Positions 27,066 through 40,943 of a DNA stretch of 64,000 bases are shown here, piece after piece. Under the pieces are notes generated by a model. That model was not told the DNA's origin and did no database searches. It saw only the letters and a program-made list of their open reading frames with translations. The DNA lies in assembly GCA_024742285.1 (NCBI GenBank), contig JANSYR010000003.1, positions 310,001 to 374,000 of the forward strand. Reading direction: 5' to 3'. The position numbers and the translations under genes were made by a program. Each line of letters begins with the position of its first letter. Within the stretch, counting starts at the first letter, position 1. The stretch comes from a bacterium (lineage in GTDB: Bacteria; Myxococcota_A; UBA9160; UBA4427).

Positions 27066-28085
<1,020 letters not shown>

Positions 28086-28110: not shown

Positions 28111-29081
<971 letters not shown>

Positions 29082-29085
<4 letters not shown>

Positions 29086-30110
29086 TCCGGGGTGTTCGGG
29101 GCCTCCTCTTCCTTCTCCTGTTGCTGTCGGTGACCGCGCCGACCTTCGGGCAGGCCGAGGAGAGCGTCGTCGAACAGGCCTTCGAGCGTGGCCCGGTCCG
29201 CGGTGTGCTCCGACTCTCGCCCGCGGAGCCGGTGATCGGGGACGTGCTGACCCTCGATCTCGAAGTGGTCTCCGAGCCCGCGGTCGAGCTGTTGATGCCG
29301 GAGTTCGGCGAGGCCCTCGGGCGCTTCGAGATCGTCGACTTCGCTCCGAGCGAACGGATCGACGACGAAGGGCGAACGGTCGCGCGACAGACCTATCGAC
29401 TCCAGCCGAAGCACTCCGGCGTCCAGTCGGTCCCGCCCCTGCGGGTCGAATTCGTCGACCGCCGACCCGGACGCGACCCCGCGCCGGACGGGGAGGACGC
29501 CTACGAGCTCCTGACCGAGCGGCTCCGCGTCGACATCGCCCCGGTCCTCGCCGAAGACGCGCCGCTCGAGCTCCGCCCGGCGCACCCCGATCTCGGACCC
29601 CGCCGCGGCCCGCTCGGTCCGGTCTGGTTCTGGGCCCTCGCCCTGGGCGTCGCCCTCGCGATCGCCGGACCCTTCGCGTGGCGGGCCCTCGCGGCTGCCC
29701 GTGCCCGACGTCGCCAGCGAAGTGCCTACGAAGTCGCCCGCCAGGCCCTCGACGGGCTCCTGTCCGGAGGTCGACCCGACGCCGCTCGCATGGACGCCTT
29801 CTACGTGGCGCTCTCGCAGATCGTGCGGACCTATCTCGAAGACCGCTTCGGCTTGCGATCACCGGAGCTGACGACCCAGGAGTTCCTGACCGAGATGGGT
29901 CGCTCGCCGGACCTCGCGCGCTCCCACCAGCAGCTCCTCCGTGAGTTCCTGACCCAGGCGGACCTCGTGAAGTTCGCGGGCCACCGCCCGGACGCGACCG
30001 TCGTCGACGAGTCGATCGCCTCCGCGGAGCGCTTCCTGGAAGAGACCCGGGACCAGGTACTCGGGTCGCAGCTCGGGGCGAAGTCTGCGGCGGCGGAGGG
30101 TGCGGCATGA
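29082..30110 (+). CDS. DUF4381/BatD-like membrane protein of the Bat operon
   Basis: The 342-residue protein has a signal peptide (LLFLLLLLSVTAPTFGQ), an exported beta-rich domain of the BatD/oxygen-tolerance type (LSPAEPVIGDVLTLDLEVVSEP), a transmembrane helix at about 185-205 and a cytosolic helical tail. The tail, with FYVALSQIVRTYLEDRFGLRSPELTTQEFL, is the common C-terminal pattern of such Bat proteins. It overlaps DUF58 by ATGA and overlaps batA by ATGA, so these genes are translationally coupled. Confidence 0.85.
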
Positions 30111-31150
30111 CCGATCTCGCCGGCGCGGGCTTCGAGTGGAGCGATCCGCTCTTCCTCTTCGCCCTGATCTTCGTGCCCCTCGTCTTCATTCGCGCGAACG
30201 CGCGGCCGGCGGCGGTCACGTGGTCGAGCCTCTCGCTGGTCGAGACCCGTGGCCGGTCGCTCCGCGCCCGGCTCACGTGGCTGCCCGCCGCGTTGCTGGC
30301 GTTGTCGACCGCTTGCCTGGCGCTCGCCCTGGCCGGGCCGCGAACCGGCGACGCGGTGAGCGAGGTGAAGCGGGAGGGCATCGCGATCGCGATGGTGGTC
30401 GATCGGTCCGGCTCGATGCAGGCGCGGGACTTCGTGCGCGGTGACCGGAGCGTGAGTCGCCTGGACGCGGTGAAGACGATCTTCCGGGACTTCGTGCTGG
30501 GGGGCGGGGACGCCGGCGACGGACGGCCCGACGACCTCGTCGGTCTCGTCTCGTTCGCCCGCTATGCAGACGGGCTCTCGCCGCTGACCCTCGACCACGG
30601 CAACCTCGTGGCGATCCTCGATCAGCTCGAGACGCCGACCACCCACGAAGAGGACGGCACGGCGGTCGGCGAAGGCCTCGCCCTCGCGGTCGAGCGACTG
30701 CGGCGGCAGGAGACGAAGTCGAAGATCGTGATCCTGCTGACCGACGGCGTGAACAACACCGGGGACATCGAGCCCCGGGAAGCCGCCGACCTCGCGGCCC
30801 GCTTCGGGATCCGCGTCTACGCCGTCGGCGCCGGCTATACCGGTCTCGCCCCGGTGCCCGTCCAGATGCCGGGCGGCCGGACCGTCCTCCAGCGCGTCCG
30901 CGTCGAGATCGACGAGGTCACGCTCCAGGAGGTCGCCCAGCGAAGCGGCGGTCGCTACTTCCACGCCACCGATGCCGACGGGATCCGCGAGGTCCTCGCC
31001 GAGATCGACCGCCTCGAGCGAAGCGAGGTCAGCGAGATCCGCTACCTCGAGTACGAGTACCACTACCTGCCCTTCGTCGCGGTGGCCCTCGTCGCGATGG
31101 CGCTCTCGCTCCTGCTCGCGGGCAGCTGGCTTCGGAGGCTGCCGGCATGA
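30107..31150 (+). CDS. batA: BatA: VWA-domain membrane protein
   Basis: The 347-residue protein has the BatA layout. Two N-terminal membrane helices (about 15-30 and 58-78) are followed by a periplasmic VWA domain with a complete MIDAS start (DRSGSM) and ILLTDGVNNTGD. A C-terminal helix lies near residue 322. Bat proteins are linked to aerotolerance and envelope stress in several bacteria; the molecular role is unsettled. It starts in an ATGA overlap with the upstream gene and ends in an ATGA overlap with the batB-batC fusion. Confidence 0.92.
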   Translation: MTDLAGAGFEWSDPLFLFALIFVPLVFIRANARPAAVTWSSLSLVETRGRSLRARLTWLPAALLALSTACLALALAGPRTGDAVSEVKREGIAIAMVVDRSGSMQARDFVRGDRSVSRLDAVKTIFRDFVLGGGDAGDGRPDDLVGLVSFARYADGLSPLTLDHGNLVAILDQLETPTTHEEDGTAVGEGLALAVERLRRQETKSKIVILLTDGVNNTGDIEPREAADLAARFGIRVYAVGAGYTGLAPVPVQMPGGRTVLQRVRVEIDEVTLQEVAQRSGGRYFHATDADGIREVLAEIDRLERSEVSEIRYLEYEYHYLPFVAVALVAMALSLLLAGSWLRRLPA

Positions 31151-34100
31151 GCGGTCTCGGGATCCACTGGGCGCGGCCGGAGCTGCTCTGGGTGGTCGGG
31201 GCGTGGCTCTTCGTCGCCCTGGTCGTCGTCGGTCTCGACCGCCGCGGCGCGGGCGCCCTCGACCGTCTGGTGTCGAGCGCGCTCCAGTCGGCGCTGGTGG
31301 CGCGGCCGGCGCGCTGGCGCCGGGTGACGCGCCTCGCGCTGCTCGTCGTGTCCGGCTTCGCCATGGCGGCGGCGCTGCTCCAGCCCCAGATGGGCGAGCG
31401 TTTCGTCGCGACGCCGCGGGTCGGTGCCGAGATCATGATCGCCCTCGACGTCTCGCGTTCGATGCTCGCGGACGATGCGGCGCCGTCGCGCCTCGAGCGG
31501 GCGAAGGCGGAGGTCCGGGACCTGCTGGCCTATCTGCGGGACGACCACGTCGGGCTGATCGCGTTCGCGGGGCGGGCGAGCGTGCTCTCGCCGATGACGC
31601 CGGACAAGAGCTTCCTGCGTCTGGCCCTCGACGGCGCCGGCCCGCACAGCGTGCCGCGCGGCGGAACGAAGCTCGCCGAGGCGATCGGCCGCGCGGTCAC
31701 GGGCTTCGGCGACCCGGGCCCCGCCCAGCGCGCCCTGATCCTGATCACCGACGGCGAGGACCACGACTCCTTCGCCCTCGACGCGGCCCGGCGCGCCGCG
31801 GAAGCCGGTATCAAGATCATCGCCATCGGCTTCGGCGACGAAGGCGGCAGCCCGATCTTCGTGCGGGATCCCGAGACCGGGGCGCGGGTGCAGGTGCGCG
31901 ACGCGGAAGGGCGTCCCGTGATCAGCCGCCTGAACGGGGATCTTCTCCGGGAGCTCGCCCTCGCGACCGACGGCGCCTACGTCCCGGCGGGCACCGGGGT
32001 CCTCGACCTCGCGTCGATCTACGATGCGCACATCGCCGGTCTCACCCGGGGCCAGATCGACGAGCGGGGCCGCACGATCCGCGACGAGGCCTATCAGCTC
32101 TTCGTCGCCATCGCGTTCGTCGCGCTGCTCGCCGGCGTGCTCCTCGTCGGCGGAAGACCGCCGCGGGGCGGGGCGATCGCGGCGCTGTTCGCGGCGTTCC
32201 TCGTGACGACCGCGCATGCCCCCGAGACTGCGGCCCAGGGCGATCCGATCCAGGGGGAGGCCCTCGAGGAGACGGAGGCGGCGCCGCCCGTGCCGCCCGC
32301 CCCGACGCCGCAGGTCGACCCCCGCGAGCGCTTCAATCGTGCGAACGCCTCGCTCGCGGCGGGGGACGCTGCGGCGGCGACGGCGGGACTTCGTGATGCG
32401 CGACGCGACGCGCCGGACGATCCCGAGCTCCGATTCGCCGCGACCTACAACCTGGGCATGGCGGCGGTCGCGCGCGCGGACGCCGAGGAGGCGCCGGAGG
32501 CGAGCCTGGCCGCGCTGCACGAAGCAGCGGACTGGTTCCGCGAAGCCGTCGCGCTCCGCCCCGACGAGGAAGACCCGCGCCACAACCTCGAAGTGGTGCT
32601 GCGTCGCGCGCTCCTGCTGGCCGACGAGCTCGCGCGGCAGGAGGAGGGCGATCTCGAGCAGGCGCTCGACGCCCTGATCGATCGCCAGCGGGGCCATCTC
32701 GGGACCGCCGCGCAGCTGTTGGGCGCCGTCGCGGGCCGCGAGGGCGAGGAAGAGGAAGCGACGCTCGCGCAGCTCCGTCCCGCCTTCGACGCCGCGGCGA
32801 CCGAGCAACGCGTGCTGCGCGCGGATGCCGACGCGCTGGCGGAGCGAGTGGTTCGCGAGCGGGAAGCGATCCTGCGGATGGTGGAGGACGTACGGTCGCC
32901 GGAGGACGCCCTCCGTGCAGCCCAGCTCGAAGGGGTGCTCGTCTACCTGGATTCGTCGATCGAGCGCATCGGCGGGACCCGTCGCCAGCTCCGCCTGCGT
33001 CGGCCGGAGCGCGCCTATCGACGCGGCGCCTCGTCGCTCGGTGAGCTGAAGCGCGCGCGGGACCAGCTGCGGGATCCCGTGCAGCAGATCGACGTGCTGA
33101 TCCAGGAGACCGGCGAAGTGCTCCAGAAGACGGGCGCGCTGCTCGCTGCGGATCGGCCGTCGCCGAGCGGCGAGCCCGGTCCTGCGCTGCCGGCCTTCCT
33201 GACGCGCGGCGCGGTCGAAGAGGAAGCACGTCGACTGACCGATCGCGTCGGGGAGCTCGCGGGTCGCCTGAAGGTCGCGGCCGAGGAGGCCGCGAAGGCA
33301 GCGCCTGCGGCGCAGGGACAGTCTGCGGCGCAGGGACAGTCCGCGGCGCCGGTCGAGCCGGGCGCGCCGGATCCCGAGCTCTTGCGAGAGGCCCTGGTCG
33401 TCGCGGCGCCCCTCGTCGGCGAGGCGGCGACGTTCCTCGAAGCGGCCACGAACGAGCTCGGCGCGGACGCGCTGCGCGAGGCGTTCGCTTCCGAGGCGCG
33501 GGCGGGTCGGGCGCTCGCCGACGCACGGGAGTCTTTCTTCGACCTCGCACGCCTGCTCGGCGTGACCTTCGAGGACCAGTCGCGGATCGCCGACCTGGCT
33601 TCGACGGAAGAGGCGGCGATCGCGGAGGTACGCGACGAGTACGCGCCGATGGCGACGGAGCTGCAGTCGAAGAATCTCGAGCGCGCCGATCGACTGGAGA
33701 TCCTGCTCGCGAAGGAGCGGGCGACCGCGCTGGCGGCGGCGGAGCAGGCGGCCGCTCAGGCCCCGCCGGCCGAGGACGAAGATCCGGCGGCGAACGAGAA
33801 GGCCCGGTTCGACGCGGCGAGTGCGCTGCTGGCGGCGGCGGACGGCGAGATGGAGGCGGCGCGCCTCGGCTTCACGGCGCGGGAGCTCGACTGGGTCGCG
33901 AGCGGCGCCCACGCGGCCACGGCGCGGGATCAGCTCGAACGCTTGCGCGAGCTCTTTTTTTCCCTGATCGAGCATCTCCAGAAGCTCGCGCGGGATCAGG
34001 TCGATCTGGCAGACGAGACGAACGAAGTGGCGACGCTGGCCACCGCGAACGCCGATGCCGAGGAGACCGCGGCCCGCGCCCGCGCGCTCGGCGACGATCA

Positions 34101-34632
34101 GGGCGGCCTCGAAGAACGGGCAGGCACGATCGCCGACGTCCTGCTGGAACGATCGCAGGTCGAGGCACCGGAGGGCGTCGCTCCGGAGGAGGCCGAGGCG
34201 GCACAGGCGAAGGCGCGTCGGGCGGCGGAGCACGTGGCGAGCGCGCAGCTCGCCATGCGCGACGCGAAGCAGGGACTCGAGGCCGAGACGCCGGACTTCG
34301 AAGCCGTGGCGCCGCCGCAGACCCTGGCCATCGAAGAGCTCATGAAGGCGCTCAAGCTGCTCTCCCCGCCGCCGCCTCCCGAGGATCAGCAGGGCGAGGA
34401 TCAGGACGAGTCCGATTCCGAGGAATCCGAGGGGGGCGAGCAACAGCCGCAGCCCGAGGGAGGCGACGAAGGCGACGGTTCGCGCGAGAATGAGGCGGCC
34501 GAGTCGCAAGAGGGGCCGCAGGATCCCGGACAGCTCCTCCAGGGCGTGCGGGATCGAGAGGCCGAGCGGCGACGGGATCGCGAGCGCGAGCGCCAGCAGC
34601 GGCGATCGCAGCCGGTGGACAGGGACTGGTGA
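31147..34632 (+). CDS. batB: BatB-BatC fusion: VWA domain, TPR and long coiled-coil
   Basis: The first ~370 residues are BatB: membrane helices near 14-33 and 60-80, a VWA domain with DVSRSM and LILITDGEDHD, then another helix (AYQLFVAIAFVALLAGVLLVGG). A hydrophobic segment and Pro-rich linker lead to a BatC-like TPR region (about 395-490, with RFNRANASLAAGDAAAA and TYNLGMAAVARADAEE). About 550 residues of mostly Ala/Glu/Arg-rich coiled coil follow. The tail, from ~1065, is acidic and Gln-rich and ends in GVRDREAERRRDRER and PVDRDW, a typical BatC end. BatB and BatC are usually separate proteins of about 330 and 250 residues, so 1161 residues is unusually long. A two-copy 18-bp repeat encodes QGQSAA near residue 725. 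It overlaps batD in GTGA. Confidence 0.9.
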   Translation: MSGLGIHWARPELLWVVGAWLFVALVVVGLDRRGAGALDRLVSSALQSALVARPARWRRVTRLALLVVSGFAMAAALLQPQMGERFVATPRVGAEIMIALDVSRSMLADDAAPSRLERAKAEVRDLLAYLRDDHVGLIAFAGRASVLSPMTPDKSFLRLALDGAGPHSVPRGGTKLAEAIGRAVTGFGDPGPAQRALILITDGEDHDSFALDAARRAAEAGIKIIAIGFGDEGGSPIFVRDPETGARVQVRDAEGRPVISRLNGDLLRELALATDGAYVPAGTGVLDLASIYDAHIAGLTRGQIDERGRTIRDEAYQLFVAIAFVALLAGVLLVGGRPPRGGAIAALFAAFLVTTAHAPETAAQGDPIQGEALEETEAAPPVPPAPTPQVDPRERFNRANASLAAGDAAAATAGLRDARRDAPDDPELRFAATYNLGMAAVARADAEEAPEASLAALHEAADWFREAVALRPDEEDPRHNLEVVLRRALLLADELARQEEGDLEQALDALIDRQRGHLGTAAQLLGAVAGREGEEEEATLAQLRPAFDAAATEQRVLRADADALAERVVREREAILRMVEDVRSPEDALRAAQLEGVLVYLDSSIERIGGTRRQLRLRRPERAYRRGASSLGELKRARDQLRDPVQQIDVLIQETGEVLQKTGALLAADRPSPSGEPGPALPAFLTRGAVEEEARRLTDRVGELAGRLKVAAEEAAKAAPAAQGQSAAQGQSAAPVEPGAPDPELLREALVVAAPLVGEAATFLEAATNELGADALREAFASEARAGRALADARESFFDLARLLGVTFEDQSRIADLASTEEAAIAEVRDEYAPMATELQSKNLERADRLEILLAKERATALAAAEQAAAQAPPAEDEDPAANEKARFDAASALLAAADGEMEAARLGFTARELDWVASGAHAATARDQLERLRELFFSLIEHLQKLARDQVDLADETNEVATLATANADAEETAARARALGDDQGGLEERAGTIADVLLERSQVEAPEGVAPEEAEAAQAKARRAAEHVASAQLAMRDAKQGLEAETPDFEAVAPPQTLAIEELMKALKLLSPPPPPEDQQGEDQDESDSEESEGGEQQPQPEGGDEGDGSRENEAAESQEGPQDPGQLLQGVRDREAERRRDRERERQQRRSQPVDRDW

Positions 34633-36473
34633 GGCGGGTGATCGACCGGAGAACGGGAAGGCGAGGGGGTTGGGCACGCCGGTACGCGGCCGGCTTCGGC
34701 CTGCTCCAGTTCGCCCTCGTCGCGTCGGGCGGGGCCTTCGCTCAGGAGGCGCAGGTCCAGGTCGGACGGGGGCCCCATTACGTCGGGGACCCGATCAACC
34801 TCCAGGTCGTCGCGTTCGACTTCGAAGAGGATCCCACGCCGGAGATCGACGCGCCGGCGCTCGAGGACGGCACGCTGCGCTTCGCCGGCGTCTCGCCGAG
34901 CGTCTCGTCGTCGATCTCGATCGTGAACGGCCGCATGTCCCGCTCGAAGGAGGTGCGCTTCGTCTACCAGTACGAGCTGATCGCGAACCGCACCGGACGG
35001 ATCGACCTCCCGCCGTTCCGCGTGCGCCAGGGCGCGACGACCCGTTCGACGGGACCGACCCGCCTCGACGTGAAGGGCGTGCCCACGACCGGGATGGTCG
35101 GGCTGTCGGTCTCGCTTCCCGAAGGCCCCATCTTCGTCGGACAGAAGGTGCCCGTCGCGATCGAGCTGCGGATCGATCGCGAGGCCGAGCGGGATCTGAT
35201 CGAGTACTCGGCGACGGTCCCCCTCTTCGATGTGCCGAACCTGCGCTTTCTGGATGCGCCGGGGAGTAGCCAGAGCACCCTCGAGATCGAGACGGCGGAG
35301 GGACGTCTCCGGCTTCCGGCGGCCCTGCGCGAGGAGACCGTGGGCGGTCGGACCGTGCTCGTCCTCCGGGCGGAGCGGACGATGATCGCGCTCTCTCCGG
35401 AGCCGCTCCGCGCCGCGCCGCCGCGGATCGTGATCAGCCGGGGGACCCGCTTCCGGCGCGATGTCTTCGGCCAGCGGCAGGCGACCTCGAGCGAACGCCT
35501 GATGTCGGAGGGCCGTCCCGTCGACCTCGAAGTGATCGAGGTTCCGAGGATCGGCCGGCCGCCGACCTGGGCCGGGGCCGTCGGCTCCGGCTATACCCTC
35601 GAAGTCAGCGCGGACCGCAGCGTCGTCCAGCTCGGGGAGCCGATCGTGCTCTCGTTCGTGCTCCGGGGCGACGGCGATCTCTCGAGCGCGGGGCTTCCGC
35701 CCTTCGATGCCCCGGGCTTCTTCGACCCGGCCCGGTTCCGACTGCCGGAGGAGCCGCCGGCGGGACTCGTCGACGAGGATGGCAAGCGGTTCGAGGTCAG
35801 CCTTCGCGTCCTCGACGCGAACGTGCGCGAAGTTCCGGCACTCGAGTACGCGTGGTTCGATGCCAAGACGCGGCGCTTCGAGACGACGACGACGCGCCCC
35901 ATCGCGCTCTCGGTCGGGGCCGCTCAGGTGATCGGCGCCGACGACGTCGACCGCGGTGCCGGCGCTCTCGTCACTTCGTCCGCGTCCGGCGAGGCCGACG
36001 GCGACCCGGCCGGCACGCCGTCGTCGCCGGAGCGCCGCGACTCTTTCGCCGCGAGCGGCGCGAACCTCGCGATCGAGCTGCAACCCGCGCGGGTCCTCGA
36101 CGGCGGCCGCCGCGTCGCGGGGGCCGGCGTCGAGGTCCCCGCGATCTACGCGCTGTCGGTCGCGCTGCTGGGATTCGCGGTCCTGGATGCGCGGCGGAGG
36201 AGACGGGATCCCGCTGAGCGGGCGCGGGCCGGTGCGATCGTGGCGGCGCGTCGGGAGATCGAAGGGGCCACCGAGGCGGGGGCGCTCGGACGCGCGCTGC
36301 GCGAGTTCGCGGCGGCGATGCCGGAGGCGGCGGCGGGGGAGCACGATGCGCTCCTCGCCGAGTGCGACGCGCTTCGCTTCGCGCCGGGGGGCGAGCAGGC
36401 CGAGCTGCCCGCGAGTTTGAAGGCGAGGGCGCTTCGCTTCCTGGACACCCTCGAGTCGGGGAAGGGCGCATGA
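34629..36473 (+). CDS. batD: BatD: oxygen-tolerance domain membrane protein
   Basis: The 614-residue protein fits BatD. A signal peptide (around YAAGFGLLQFALVASGGAFAQ) is followed by repeated immunoglobulin-like exported domains, each with the GDPINLQV, GQKVPVAIELRI or GEPIVLSFVLRGDGDL pattern. Other hallmarks are VSSSISIVNGRMSRSKEVRFVYQYELIANRTGRIDLPPFRV and APRI-type strand motifs. A membrane helix lies near residue 502 and a helical cytosolic tail follows. GTG at 34629 overlaps the batB-batC stop, and its own stop overlaps the next ATG. There is no sign of decay. Confidence 0.9.
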   Translation: MRRVIDRRTGRRGGWARRYAAGFGLLQFALVASGGAFAQEAQVQVGRGPHYVGDPINLQVVAFDFEEDPTPEIDAPALEDGTLRFAGVSPSVSSSISIVNGRMSRSKEVRFVYQYELIANRTGRIDLPPFRVRQGATTRSTGPTRLDVKGVPTTGMVGLSVSLPEGPIFVGQKVPVAIELRIDREAERDLIEYSATVPLFDVPNLRFLDAPGSSQSTLEIETAEGRLRLPAALREETVGGRTVLVLRAERTMIALSPEPLRAAPPRIVISRGTRFRRDVFGQRQATSSERLMSEGRPVDLEVIEVPRIGRPPTWAGAVGSGYTLEVSADRSVVQLGEPIVLSFVLRGDGDLSSAGLPPFDAPGFFDPARFRLPEEPPAGLVDEDGKRFEVSLRVLDANVREVPALEYAWFDAKTRRFETTTTRPIALSVGAAQVIGADDVDRGAGALVTSSASGEADGDPAGTPSSPERRDSFAASGANLAIELQPARVLDGGRRVAGAGVEVPAIYALSVALLGFAVLDARRRRRDPAERARAGAIVAARREIEGATEAGALGRALREFAAAMPEAAAGEHDALLAECDALRFAPGGEQAELPASLKARALRFLDTLESGKGA

Positions 36474-36571
36474 AGCATCTCGCCTCTCGACCCGCCGGAG
36501 GGCGCACGAAGGGTTTGGCCCCGCGACTCGCCCGGGGGCACATGAAGCGTTCGGCCGCGCGAATCGCCGGA
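36464..36571 (+). repeat. 36-bp imperfect tandem repeat spanning the BatE-like start
   Basis: Three units of 36 bp start at 36464, 36500 and 36536. All begin GGGCRC followed by ATGAAG, ACGAAG and ATGAAG. They encode MKHLASRPAGGR, TKGLAPRLARGH and MKRSAARIAGLV. The first ATG (36470) overlaps the batD stop, the second unit has ACG in its place, and the third ATG (36542) opens a normal signal peptide. Confidence 0.8.
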
Positions 36572-37345
36572 CTCGTCTCGTTGGCACTGTTGATGGTCGG
36601 GCCGGCGTCGGCGCTCGACCGCGAGGCCCGTCTCGCGGAAGCGAGCGAGGCCTACGGGGCGGCCCTGGCCGAGCCCGATCGTGACGCACGCCTTGCGGGC
36701 TTTGCGCAGGCGCAACGAGGCTTCGCCTCGCTCGTGGAAGACGGCGTCGCAACGGCGCCGCTCTTCGTCAACCTGGGCAACGCAGCGCTGCAGGCCCAGG
36801 ATCGCGGGACGGCCGTCCTCGCCTATCACCGCGCGCTGCAGATCGACCCCGACGACCCGACTGCACGCCAGAATCTCGAGTACGCGCGCGGGCGGCTACC
36901 GGGCTGGGTCCCGCGGCCGGAGGACGCCGAGGGCTTCCGGGGCTTCTTCGACGACCGACTGCTGCCGAGCGCCTGGCGGGTCCGGGGGGCGGCGGTCGCC
37001 TTCCTGGCGATGGCCATCGCAGCCGTCTTCTCGGTCCGCGAGCGACCGGGCGCCTGGCGGGGCGCCGCGGTCTTCGCCGGCGTGGCCTGGGCGCTCCTGT
37101 TGGGCTCGACCTTCGTCGGTGGGGCGTCGACGCGGCCCCTCGCCGTCCTGATCGCTGCGGAGACCGAGGCGCGCTCGGCGGACTCGGCGCTCGCACCCCG
37201 GGCGTTGCCCGAGCCCCTGCCGGCGGGCGTCGAGGTCGATTTCCTCGAGGAACGCCAGGGCTGGGCGCGTGTCCGGCTCGCGAACGGGCGCGACGTCTGG
37301 GTGCGGAGGTCGAACGTGGCACGGGTCGACGCCGAGAACGGGTGA
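36470..37345 (+). CDS. batE: BatE-like TPR/SH3 membrane protein
   Basis: The last Bat-operon gene encodes 291 residues from the ATG at 36470, or 267 from the ATG at 36542. The second ATG opens a clean signal peptide (MKRSAARIAGLVSLALLMVGPASA) and may be the true start, although the first gives the ATGA overlap seen through the operon. After the signal come a TPR pair (APLFVNLGNAALQAQDRGTAVLAYHRALQIDPDDPTARQNLEYARG), two membrane helices at about 167-186 and 195-215 and a C-terminal SH3-like domain (EVDFLEERQGWARVRLANGRDVWV). This is the BatE arrangement. The 24-residue leader is built of 12-residue repeats. Confidence 0.85.
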   Translation: MKHLASRPAGGRTKGLAPRLARGHMKRSAARIAGLVSLALLMVGPASALDREARLAEASEAYGAALAEPDRDARLAGFAQAQRGFASLVEDGVATAPLFVNLGNAALQAQDRGTAVLAYHRALQIDPDDPTARQNLEYARGRLPGWVPRPEDAEGFRGFFDDRLLPSAWRVRGAAVAFLAMAIAAVFSVRERPGAWRGAAVFAGVAWALLLGSTFVGGASTRPLAVLIAAETEARSADSALAPRALPEPLPAGVEVDFLEERQGWARVRLANGRDVWVRRSNVARVDAENG

Positions 37346-37524: not shown

Positions 37525-38628
37525 ATGGAGCCCATCCGGGTGGCGATCGCCGGCGTCGGCAACTGTGCGAGCGCGCTCGTGCAGGGCGTCGCATGGTACG
37601 CCGAGCGCGAGAGCGACGATCGGGCAGGACTCATGCGCACGTCGATCGGCGGCTTCCGGGCGGAGGATCTCGCGTTCGTCGCGGCCTTCGACGTCGATGC
37701 GCGGAAGGTCGGTCGTCCCCTCGAAGAAGCGATCCTCGCGGCGCCGAACTGCACCCGGGTCTTCCAGGACGCGTTGCCCAGGTCGGGGGTGTACGTGCAG
37801 TCCGCCCCGGTCTTCGACGGCATCGCGGCGCACATGGCGGACCACCCGGCGGAACGGGCCTTTCGCATCACGGACGAGCCGCCCGTCGATCTCGCCCGCG
37901 CCGTCGCCGATTCGGGGGCCGAGATCCTCGTCTCCTATCTCCCGGTCGGGGCCGAGGCCGCGGTTCGAGCCTTCGCCGAAGCCTGCCTGGCGGCGGGCGT
38001 CGCCTTCGTGAACTGCGTCCCCGTCTTCATCGCCTCCGATCCCGAATGGAGCCATCGCTTCCGCGAGGCCGGCCTGCCGATCGTGGGCGACGACATCAAG
38101 AGCCAGGTGGGCGCCACGATCGTCCACCGGGTGCTCGCCCGCCTGCTCGCCGACCGCGGCGTCGAGCTCGACCGGACCTATCAGCTGAATACGGGCGGCA
38201 ATACCGACTTCCTCAACATGATGGAACGAACGCGCCTCGCCTCGAAGAAAGTCTCCAAGACCGAAGCGGTCCAGAGCCAGCTCGACGAACGCCTCGCGAC
38301 CGACGACATCCACATCGGCCCCTCGGACTACGTCCCCTGGCAGGGCGACAACAAGGTCGCGTTCATTCGCGCCGAAGGGCGAGGATTCGGGGACGCGCCG
38401 ATCGAGCTCGAGCTCCGGCTCTCGGTCCAGGACTCGCCGAACAGCGCCGGCGTCGTGATCGACGCGATCCGCTGCGCGAAGCTCGGCCTCGACCGGGGGA
38501 TGGGCGGGCCGCTCGATGCGGCGTGCGCCTACTACATGAAGAGTCCGCCGATCCAGATGCGCGACGAGGAAGCGCGGGTCGCGGTCGACGCGTTCATCGA
38601 GGCGAAGCCGCTCGCGCGTCGCGACTGA
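37525..38628 (+). CDS. ino1: myo-Inositol-1-phosphate synthase
   Basis: Converts glucose 6-phosphate to myo-inositol 1-phosphate with NAD, the first step towards inositol lipids and inositol-based thiols or solutes. The 367-residue protein is of the short prokaryotic type. It has the Rossmann motif VAIAGVGNCASALVQG, VNCVPVFIASDPEW, GDDIKSQVGATIVHRVLA and the signature LNTGGNTDFLNM, with Lys residues in ASKKVSKTEAV and DNKVAF. GAGGAGGT precedes the start. It is not in the Bat operon: 179 bases separate them, in which I see no further gene. It converges on the copper oxidase gene. Confidence 0.93.
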   Translation: MEPIRVAIAGVGNCASALVQGVAWYAERESDDRAGLMRTSIGGFRAEDLAFVAAFDVDARKVGRPLEEAILAAPNCTRVFQDALPRSGVYVQSAPVFDGIAAHMADHPAERAFRITDEPPVDLARAVADSGAEILVSYLPVGAEAAVRAFAEACLAAGVAFVNCVPVFIASDPEWSHRFREAGLPIVGDDIKSQVGATIVHRVLARLLADRGVELDRTYQLNTGGNTDFLNMMERTRLASKKVSKTEAVQSQLDERLATDDIHIGPSDYVPWQGDNKVAFIRAEGRGFGDAPIELELRLSVQDSPNSAGVVIDAIRCAKLGLDRGMGGPLDAACAYYMKSPPIQMRDEEARVAVDAFIEAKPLARRD

Positions 38629-38666: not shown

Positions 38667-40943
38667 CTACCAGATCAACTCGAGTCCCGCGCCCAGGCCG
38701 AACTCGCTGTGCCACTCCGCAGCGATCGCGGCGTATCGGTGGACGCGGAATCGCAGGCCCGTGCTGCCTTCGAATCCCTGCTCCGTGTCGAACTCGACGT
38801 CGCCCACGAAGCCGAGCCGCGAGGTGAGGTCGAGCTCCTTGGCGAGGGCGAAGCGCCCATGGCCGCGGGTGTCGATCCAGGCGCGGCCATCGAAGTTGAG
38901 CGGAAGGAGCGATTCCGCCCCGAAGACGCCGACGTCCCGCTCGTCTTCGAAACTCGCGCCGGCGAAGAACCGGTAGAAGCGGTTCACGTGATAGCGGTAG
39001 CGGGGCAGTACCTCGTGGTCGACGTCCCCTCGATAGCCGATCTCCCACTCGACGCCGAGCTCGTGTCGGCGATTGCTCGCGATGGCTTCGCCTTCGGTGA
39101 ACTGGGAGAGCCCGCTCGCCTCCGCCCACGCGTAGATCGGGTCCTTGAAGAGCTGCTCGCGTTCTTCCGAGAGCGCGGGGTCGGGCGCGTCCCCTTCGTA
39201 GTGGAAGATGCGGCTCATGCCGGCCTTCATGTGGTAGAGGACGTGGCAGTGGAAGAACCAGTCGGCCTCGGCGTCGGCCAGGAACTCGATCGTCGTCGTC
39301 TGCATGGGGGCCACGTCGACGGTGTGCTTGAGGGGCGCATGGGCATCGGCCCGACGGAGGGCGTTCGCGCCGAGGACCCGGAAGAAGTGCCCGTGGAGAT
39401 GCAGCGGGTGGTGCATCATCGTCGTGTTCTCGAGCTCGACTCGGAGGATCTCGCCGCGGCGGATGGGGATCACATCCGACTCGGCGAGGGTCTTTCCGTC
39501 GAAGGACCAGACGTAGCGATCCATGTTGCCGGTGAGCCGGAGTCGGATCGTTCGGGACGGCGCGTCTTCGGGGAGGGTGCTCGGGTGGCGCGATTGCAGC
39601 CGCTCATAGGGTGGGAGCGGCCGCGGATTGTGCGCCTCGGCGTGTGCGGCGTGACTCGCGTGCGAATCGTCGACGGCCGGCGAGTGGCTTCCGTCGGAAG
39701 CGCCGCGGTGTCCCGAGGGCATCTCGTGTCCCTCGTGTCCCTCGTGAACCGGGGGGTGGGAAGCTTCGGCTTCTTCGTGCGGCGCCCTGTCCGGCGTGGG
39801 GCTCGCGTGCGACGACCCGTGTGCGGCGCCGTGCCCGGCGTGGCGCATCGCGTAGAGGTTGGGGCGCGGTACGGACTCGGCGGGTCGATCCGGACCGGAG
39901 CCGATCCAGGCCGATGCCGAACCGGATCCGTCCTGGGCGGTCGCCCGGAACTCGATCCGGCCGTCGGCGGGAACCTCGACCACGACGTCGTAGGTCTCGG
40001 CGATCGCCATCAGGAGCCGATCGGTCTCGAAGGGCCGCACGTCGACGCCGTCGGCGGCGACGATTCGAAAGGGACGGGCGCCGATCCCCAGATAGAAGTA
40101 GGTCGACGCGGCCGCGTTCACGATCCGGATCCGGAGTCGCTCGCCCGGCCGGGCCTCGATCGTCGACTCGGGAGCGCCGTTGATCAGGAACGCGTCGTAG
40201 GCGACGTCCGAGAGGTCCATCGGGGGCATCCGTCGAAGCGACCTGCGCAGGACGCTGCCGAGCTCGCCGGCGCGCAAGGCGCCCCAGAGACTCTGCGCCG
40301 TTCCCTTCTCGACGGAGAAGTACTCGCTGCCTCGCTTCAGCAGGCGCAGGATCTCGTTGGGATCGCGTCGAGTCCAGTCGGAGAGCACGAGGACGACGTC
40401 CCGGTCGACGTCGGGTGCCGTCGCAGGTCGATGGTCGTGCGGCCTCGAAGTCGGTGCCTCGTCCTCGTCGATCACGATCGCGCCGTAGACGCCGCGCTGC
40501 TCCTGGAGCGCCGTATGGGAGTGGTACCAGTAGGTGCCGGGATGACGGATCGGAATCTCGAACGTGTGGGTTTCGCCGGGCCGGATGCCGGGTGTCGTCA
40601 GGCCGGGGACGCCGTCCTGCACGTTCGGGAGCAGGAGCCCGTGCCAGTGGATCGAGCTCGGGACGTCCATCGTGTTCGTCACGCGGATGCGAGCGAGATC
40701 CCCGACGCGCCACCGGAGCGTCGGTCCCGGGATGGCCCCGTTCACCGTCATGCCTTCCGACGTGACCCCGGCGATCTCGACCGATTCGCGCGCGATCGTG
40801 AGCTCGGCCTCGACGATGCGGAGTCCGTCGTGCTCGGTCTGGGCGATCGGCGGGGTGGCGCCGACCGTCCGTGCGGCACTCGCGAGGAGGAGAACGAGCA
40901 GGAAGGCGGACCGCAGATGGGCGGGAGTGGGACCTCGAGACAT
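38667..40943 (-). CDS. CopA-like multicopper oxidase with C-terminal beta-barrel-like domain
   Basis: Periplasmic multicopper oxidases of this type oxidise Cu(I) and give copper resistance. The 758-residue protein has a signal peptide (FLLVLLLASAARTVGA) and all copper motifs: HWHGLLLPN, WYHSHTALQEQRG, HPLHLHGHFF and the type 1 site HCHVLYHMKAGM. Between cupredoxin domains 2 and 3 is a His/Glu/Ser-rich loop of about 80 residues (366-445), which may collect copper. The oxidase should end near residue 615. The remaining ~140 residues are beta-strand-like, aromatic and end in Trp (GLGAGLELIW). They resemble the outer-membrane CopB protein more than any oxidase domain. A small Cys-rich exported protein lies directly upstream. 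Confidence 0.9.
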   Translation of the reverse strand: MSRGPTPAHLRSAFLLVLLLASAARTVGATPPIAQTEHDGLRIVEAELTIARESVEIAGVTSEGMTVNGAIPGPTLRWRVGDLARIRVTNTMDVPSSIHWHGLLLPNVQDGVPGLTTPGIRPGETHTFEIPIRHPGTYWYHSHTALQEQRGVYGAIVIDEDEAPTSRPHDHRPATAPDVDRDVVLVLSDWTRRDPNEILRLLKRGSEYFSVEKGTAQSLWGALRAGELGSVLRRSLRRMPPMDLSDVAYDAFLINGAPESTIEARPGERLRIRIVNAAASTYFYLGIGARPFRIVAADGVDVRPFETDRLLMAIAETYDVVVEVPADGRIEFRATAQDGSGSASAWIGSGPDRPAESVPRPNLYAMRHAGHGAAHGSSHASPTPDRAPHEEAEASHPPVHEGHEGHEMPSGHRGASDGSHSPAVDDSHASHAAHAEAHNPRPLPPYERLQSRHPSTLPEDAPSRTIRLRLTGNMDRYVWSFDGKTLAESDVIPIRRGEILRVELENTTMMHHPLHLHGHFFRVLGANALRRADAHAPLKHTVDVAPMQTTTIEFLADAEADWFFHCHVLYHMKAGMSRIFHYEGDAPDPALSEEREQLFKDPIYAWAEASGLSQFTEGEAIASNRRHELGVEWEIGYRGDVDHEVLPRYRYHVNRFYRFFAGASFEDERDVGVFGAESLLPLNFDGRAWIDTRGHGRFALAKELDLTSRLGFVGDVEFDTEQGFEGSTGLRFRVHRYAAIAAEWHSEFGLGAGLELIW

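Follow-up and report, generated by a model that had tools for sequence, protein, structure and literature searches.

The Bat operon of the window (the whole stretch of 64,000 nucleotides that was analyzed) codes for a fusion of BatB and BatC whose BatC half carries four degenerate tandem copies of a four-helix unit of about 120 to 140 residues. The fusion of batB with batC is itself already in print, and what is new is a Bat fusion with a BatC of this kind. Both halves are joined by a segment with the conserved pattern of an export signal, and the fusion is probably cut apart there by signal peptidase, as judged from the sequence. The fusion, the operon, the helical fold, the fourfold repeat, the conserved junction signal, and the split sister forms with signal peptides were computed directly. 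The reading that we favor, and consider likely, is that of a membrane polyprotein from which signal peptidase I would free a periplasmic scaffold, made of a TPR part and four helical bundles, from a membrane-anchored VWA protein; its topology, cleavage, stoichiometry, and scaffold role are what we infer from the observations below.

Operon and architecture of the fusion

The operon is complete, in the order MoxR-DUF58-BatA-BatBC-BatD-BatE. The fusion is a single ATG-TGA frame of 1,161 amino acids, its ATG overlapping the BatA stop codon and its stop overlapping the GTG of BatD, and the related loci with enough flanking sequence have mostly the same operon as the window.

27066..28085, + strand, MoxR AAA+ ATPase (start picked by eye among in-frame codons)
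28111..29085, + strand, DUF58 protein (profile match)
29082..30110, + strand, secreted or membrane protein, BatD-like or DUF4381-like (weak match, below cutoff)
30107..31150, + strand, BatA, with N-terminal BatA domain and VWA (profile match)
31147..34632, + strand, BatB-BatC fusion
34629..36473, + strand, BatD, with an N-terminal signal peptide ending AFA↓Q (arrow, cleavage site, here set by eye)
36470..37345, + strand, BatE-like TPR and SH3 protein (alternative start 36542)

Directly downstream of the operon, the frame at 37525-38628 (+) presumably resembles a myo-inositol-1-phosphate synthase, and that at 38667-40943 (-) is one that we take to be multicopper-oxidase-like, containing a long insert rich in His. 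Within the fusion, we located the following features, all on the + strand.

31180..31236, + strand, TM1 (residues 12-30; hydropathy)
31324..31380, + strand, TM2 (residues 60-78; hydropathy)
31420..32052, + strand, BatB VWA domain (residues 92-302; profile, alignment, fold match)
32098..32154, + strand, TM3 (residues 318-336; hydropathy)
32155..32235, + strand, internal signal peptide (residues 337-363; loop containing two Arg but lacking acidic residues, core 343-353, cleavage predicted at TAA↓Q, 363/364)
32320..32733, + strand, TPR domain of BatC with three pairs of helices (residues 392-529; weak BatC match, models, fold)
32773..33141, + strand, four-helix unit 1 (U1), the most divergent (model, profile comparison, HMM)
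33196..33606, + strand, four-helix unit 2 (U2; model, profile comparison, HMM)
33643..34029, + strand, four-helix unit 3 (U3; model, profile comparison, HMM)
34075..34392, + strand, four-helix unit 4 (U4), three helices modeled (models, profile comparison, HMM)
34378..34521, + strand, acidic and Gln-rich low-complexity linker, predicted to be disordered (residues 1078-1125; model)
34525..34629, + strand, conserved C-terminal helix of BatC with the DW end (residues 1127-1161; alignment, model)

The initial annotation had placed a VWA BatB part, a BatC TPR part, and a BatC-type end in one gene, and this assignment holds, with a VWA_2 match, a TPR fold, and a DW end that is present in 28 of 28 aligned orthologues. 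Neither the signal peptide at the junction nor the fourfold repeat had been noticed in that annotation. The Bacteroides Bat operon and that of Leptospira biflexa have the same combination of a VWA BatB and a TPR BatC with MoxR, according to PMC3557215, which also describes batB and batC as fused in L. biflexa and reports that Borrelia, Spirochaeta thermophila, and F. tularensis have bat fusions of other kinds. The same text states that no effect of a bat deletion on growth, morphology, or oxidative stress was detected in L. biflexa, calls Bat function elusive, and in its accessible part mentions a signal sequence for BatD only and none at the junction. Compared with both of these systems, the window BatC has four extra four-helix units.

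The BatB half shows the BatB pattern of two N-terminal TM helices and one past the VWA domain, as seen by hydropathy. The domain itself matches VWA_2 at residues 96-204 (E value of 5.7e-19), and its model superposes on Bacteroides BatB 3ibs_A with a Z score of 30.2 and an rmsd of 1.6 Å over 205 residues and on 4jdu, also Bacteroides BatB, with a Z score of 28.4 over 201 residues; the fold is the same, and those structures comprise the VWA domain only. D101-x-S103-x-S105, T151, and D202, which we take to be the MIDAS residues, are invariant across 28 orthologues. The NCBIfam Leptospira exception model NF047506 scored 84.5 against a cutoff of 350 bits, so this BatB is not filed there. After TM1 there is an Arg-rich loop (residues 31-59, charges from the sequence) that we read as cytoplasmic, and in Borrelia BB0173, a related protein, the VWA domain is described as periplasmic in PMC5700661. 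The arginines of the first loop, together with the analogy to BB0173, suggest that the VWA domain of the fusion is periplasmic as well, and the BatC half must therefore cross the membrane again.

A signal peptide at the BatB/BatC junction

The junction was analyzed in 62 complete long fusions of at least 1,000 amino acids, reduced to 44 by 6-mer sharing and to a non-redundant set of 42 by removing one truncated copy (L034) and one without the anchor motif (L069). A second hydrophobic stretch past TM3 was present in all 42. Its core has a median of 12 residues, versus 15 to 16 for TM1 to TM3, and this fourth hydrophobic segment is followed by [AVSTG]xAQ in 31 of the 42 fusions, against a mean of 5.7 and a maximum of 12 in shuffled sequences; the controls after TM1, TM2, and TM3 gave 0/42 each. 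Most of the 11 fusions without the strict pattern have another small-x-small site (by eye). The window junction reads TTAHAPETAA↓Q, and A363 and Q364 are among the columns conserved at 90% or more in alignment A1 (window plus 27 of 44 loci from a genome search), with the neighboring residues varying. The loop before the segment is net positive in 37 of 43 (43 of the 44 fusions were counted, with TM segments picked automatically and TM3 wrongly placed in two of them or more, including L007 and L033). In the whole-protein structure model the junction has a pLDDT below 50. The N termini of the neighboring BatD proteins show the same A↓Q grammar in 31 of 62, counted in a control window that includes unaligned upstream residues in some rows.

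Outside this set, 26 shorter BatB-BatC fusions from other groups had the strict pattern in seven cases (shuffle mean, 2.0; maximum, 5) and a plain AxA at chance level (10 versus 9.3), and because the signal is weaker there, we have only a hint that it extends beyond the long clade. L157, a fused copy outside the class, has the internal signal segment too. In three fusions (L122, L092, and L082) we found a Cys after or at the end of the internal hydrophobic stretch (SGC or SSC, at about residues 343-355, 364-374, and 382-402), which might be an internal lipoprotein signal.

Some loci have both proteins apart. In L083 to L088, BatB has 345 to 356 amino acids, and a gene of its own codes for the long BatC, which begins with a signal peptide; six loci that belong to other families of this phylum bring the split set to 12 (L149, L150, and L151, with contigs as long as those of L086, L085, and L084, were uncounted as copies of these, and L153 was left out, having no usable BatB stop). 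In 11 of these 12, the start of BatC and the stop of BatB share 4 nt, and in L088 BatC starts just past the BatB stop (offset of +5); all 12 separate BatCs have an N-terminal signal peptide (by reading), of the lipoprotein type in three. The starts of the latter (L088, 6445-6502; L148, from 1967; L158, from 1981) contain LASC, VAGC, and LGGC, which we take to be lipobox-like, and the long BatC in these three loci may be membrane-anchored rather than soluble. As the split BatC has its own signal peptide, the internal segment of the fusion stands at the place of the export signal of a separate BatC. A tree of BatB (quick method, 70 hand-picked rows) recovered the fused long clade (support of 97) and the split clade (94) as sisters (81), and the junction grammar has outlived deep splits within the fused clade. 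Five of the split loci (L083, L084, L086, L087, and L088) also have a longer BatD frame (848 to 918 amino acids), with a separate BatE not found in the flank, and a BatD-BatE fusion is possible in them.

The main rival to cleavage is that the junction acts as an uncleaved signal anchor, a fourth TM that would keep a single polypeptide with the scaffold tethered at the inner membrane beside the VWA domain. A hydrophobic segment preceded by a positive loop would give the identical topology without any cut, and the retention of the fusion across the whole fused clade is what we would expect if the tether matters. We nevertheless regard this anchor as unlikely, though it deserves the most attention among the alternatives, as it leaves unexplained the small-x-A↓Q conserved at the exit side of this segment and of none of the other three, a core shorter than that of true TM helices, and sister lineages that export BatC as a separate protein. 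Another way of making BatC separately with no cleavage would be internal translation initiation in the loop, where 21 of the 42 fusions do have an in-frame ATG, GTG, or TTG; the other 21, including the window, have no start codon there, and a Shine-Dalgarno-like stretch was present in only 3 of 42, so that we rejected this as a general alternative and give it hardly any weight.

The cleaved polyprotein that we prefer would work as follows. The BatB half would insert by its three TM helices with the VWA domain in the periplasm, and the junction, as a second and internal signal peptide, would take the BatC half through the membrane to be cut by signal peptidase I behind the A of A↓Q. Two products in a 1:1 ratio are predicted, BatB anchored in the membrane and, apart from it, a periplasmic BatC of about 800 residues. 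Mature BatC would comprise the TPR domain, the four degenerate four-helix units, the disordered acidic linker, and the conserved C-terminal helix, forming an elongated and jointed scaffold with multiple sites that could re-dock on BatD and on the VWA proteins of the Bat system and offer the surfaces of its bundles to clients among the envelope proteins; MoxR would act from the cytoplasmic side. From the type of its domains, a scaffold is the most likely role of BatC, a reading against which the deletion result in L. biflexa counts.

A precedent for such processing is FbcH of Bradyrhizobium japonicum (cytochrome b/c1), in which a single gene codes for two envelope proteins that signal peptidase cuts apart at an internal signal. 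Both cases involve unrelated proteins, and cleavage has been shown for FbcH, whereas it is predicted for BatB-BatC. Our search of the open-license PMC literature for Bat junction signals or bacterial internal-signal polyproteins gave no entry on a Bat junction signal among the papers listed. The conserved internal signal peptide implies that "fused" Bat genes could still yield two proteins, an outcome that would alter the annotation, tagging, and complementation of fused bat genes. If cleaved, the fusion would be a cell-encoded case of polyprotein processing by signal peptidase.

Four tandem four-helix units in BatC

The initial annotation had described the enlargement of BatC as an insertion of about 550 residues forming a coiled coil. 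The enlargement stands, as does its Ala/Glu/Arg-rich helical character (22% A, 12.5% E, 12.7% L, and 9.8% R at residues 485-1075), but the coiled coil gives way to short helices arranged in four repeated units. An AlphaFold2 model of the whole protein (33 sequences) had a mean pLDDT of 81, mostly above 85 in the helical part, and a second model of residues 388-1080 alone (31 sequences; pLDDT of 90.4, pTM of 0.72) contains 22 helices of 10 to 43 residues each. Helices 1 to 6 are three TPR-like pairs, and the remaining 16 lie past the TPR domain, with a repeating pattern of two long helices and two shorter ones (by eye from the helix list). The indel zones of the orthologues fall mainly in the loops between predicted helices.

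The TPR domain was recognized by a weak match to Leptospira BatC at residues 391-483 and by its fold, with CTPR and TPR chains at Z scores of about 12 to 14.5 on model residues 1-105; the TPR families of Pfam gave no match in the fusion protein.

The four units are related to each other. Profile-profile comparison with hhalign gave 94.4% for U1-U2, 94.7% for U2-U3, 95.4% for U2-U4, and 88.9% for U3-U4, with weak pairs in U1-U3 (36%) and U1-U4 (12%); none of the ten pairs exceeded 4.1% with reversed profiles, and comparisons of the TPR part with the units gave 4.0% at most. Leave-one-out HMMs recovered the held-out unit at an E value of ≤1e-3 in 30 of 31 sequences for U2, 29 of 30 for U4, 22 of 31 for U3, and 19 of 31 for U1, the window's own U1 being weak (E value of 0.045), and none of 124 reversed proteins matched the unit HMM at an E value of ≤1. 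Alignment A4 covers 44 of the 68 unit segments that were prepared. With an HMM of all units, four copies were seen in every one of the 10 long fusions listed and of the 6 split BatCs. Among short and mid-length fusions, it found two copies in L089 and L095, a single weak one in L092, L094, and L101, and none in the others. As only three helices are modeled in U4, its fourth may be the C-terminal helix of the protein. A search of the whole genome of the window with the unit profile found four matches, which lie in order within the BatB-BatC frame and nowhere else.

No Pfam model reaches its cutoff over the four-unit region, and the PDB offered no convincing sequence match to the helical part, the best having an E value of 0.42 and the profile matches all being weak. 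DUF4175 (PF13779), considered as a candidate relative, was rejected, with 0 matches in the own genome and none to the helical part by hmmscan (both at an E value of ≤10). The repeat thus lacks a Pfam model and marks a clade of Bat operons.

Rod or load-bearing link

A whole-protein fold search gave VWA matches only, and we therefore used a separate model of the helical part as the query. Alpha-catenin and vinculin came first in Foldseek (best E value of 4.6e-4), with query TM-scores of 0.13 to 0.20, and VIA placed 308 to 325 non-TPR residues on metavinculin or vinculin with a Z score of about 12, an rmsd of 11 to 12 Å, and 9 to 12% identity, a Z score within the tool's stated chance range for unrelated helical repeats. 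Because a Z score near 12 arises by chance for helical repeats, we consider this likeness as architectural only; absence from the Foldseek and VIA lists excludes no fold family. Alpha-catenin, vinculin, and talin are families built from bundles, and like the BatC units they are serial helical bundles with linkers. They show no sequence relation to BatC and superpose weakly, so that the likeness is an analogy at most.

Two mechanical readings of the stretch were weighed against this evidence. The initial annotation predicted a periplasmic rod of tens of nanometers, that is, a single long coiled coil of about 550 residues, and the Ala/Glu/Arg-rich composition, together with a heptad bias above that of shuffled sequences (mean of 0.34 versus 0.24), is in its favor. 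The coiled-coil and structure predictions nonetheless returned the outcome that it had named beforehand as contrary to a rod, many short helices: no continuous helix with unbroken heptads was present in the heptad scan or in either AlphaFold2 model, the longest constant heptad register in the window has 65 residues, the longest predicted helix has 43 residues (about 6.5 nm), and the stretch is a fourfold repeat of a four-helix unit. We rejected the single rod on the heptad scan and both models, and its probability appears minimal. That the four bundles are a load-bearing link opened by force, as in talin, vinculin, or alpha-catenin, and tie the VWA protein either to the wall or to the outer membrane would fit the first ranks in Foldseek and the extent of the VIA superposition, but the large rmsd, the low identity and TM-scores, and a Z score at chance level speak against it, and profile searches of the protein found no wall- or outer-membrane-binding domain; it seems highly improbable, if a little less so than the rod. 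Only slightly better, and still very doubtful, are the prospects of the broadest proposal, in which BatB-BatC fusions of at least three phyla would be cut by signal peptidase I and the freed BatC would be a new four-bundle periplasmic rod, opening or switching partners under load like vinculin and talin and linking the VWA complex to envelope clients.

Distribution of the long form

In the class survey, 72 of 90 genomes had a match to the fusion protein, many through the VWA domain only, and the long form was present in 41 of the 90 (hand count of rows, contig-truncated copies included). Across the phylum, 42 of 282 genomes match the unit at an E value of ≤1e-4, most with four matches. The complete orthologues (among 28 aligned) have 1,098 to 1,236 amino acids and align over their full length, with 38 to 80% identity to the window.

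A wider scan of named genomes gave a best 80 loci, from which we prepared alignment A2 (window plus 32 of these loci); in alignment A3, L049 and L076 were dropped for masked letters. Long copies among the best 80 loci belong to Myxococcota or Deltaproteobacteria, Planctomycetota, and Magnetococcales, with few others (Pseudomonadales, Spirochaeta, and uncultured bacteria), as far as labels of MAGs, which can err, are followed. By those labels, the architecture is common to Myxococcota, Planctomycetota, and Magnetococcales. The survey of BatB length that the initial annotation had proposed for Myxococcota and Binatota thus found the form well beyond Myxococcota; no Binatota were among the best 80 loci by label. 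One Magnetococcales locus (L060, 3106-6540) has the fused frame broken between units 2 and 3 into frames of 840 and 343 amino acids, either by an assembly error or by fission. One genome (G048) has two long BatB-BatC copies (C366 and C273), with eight unit matches.
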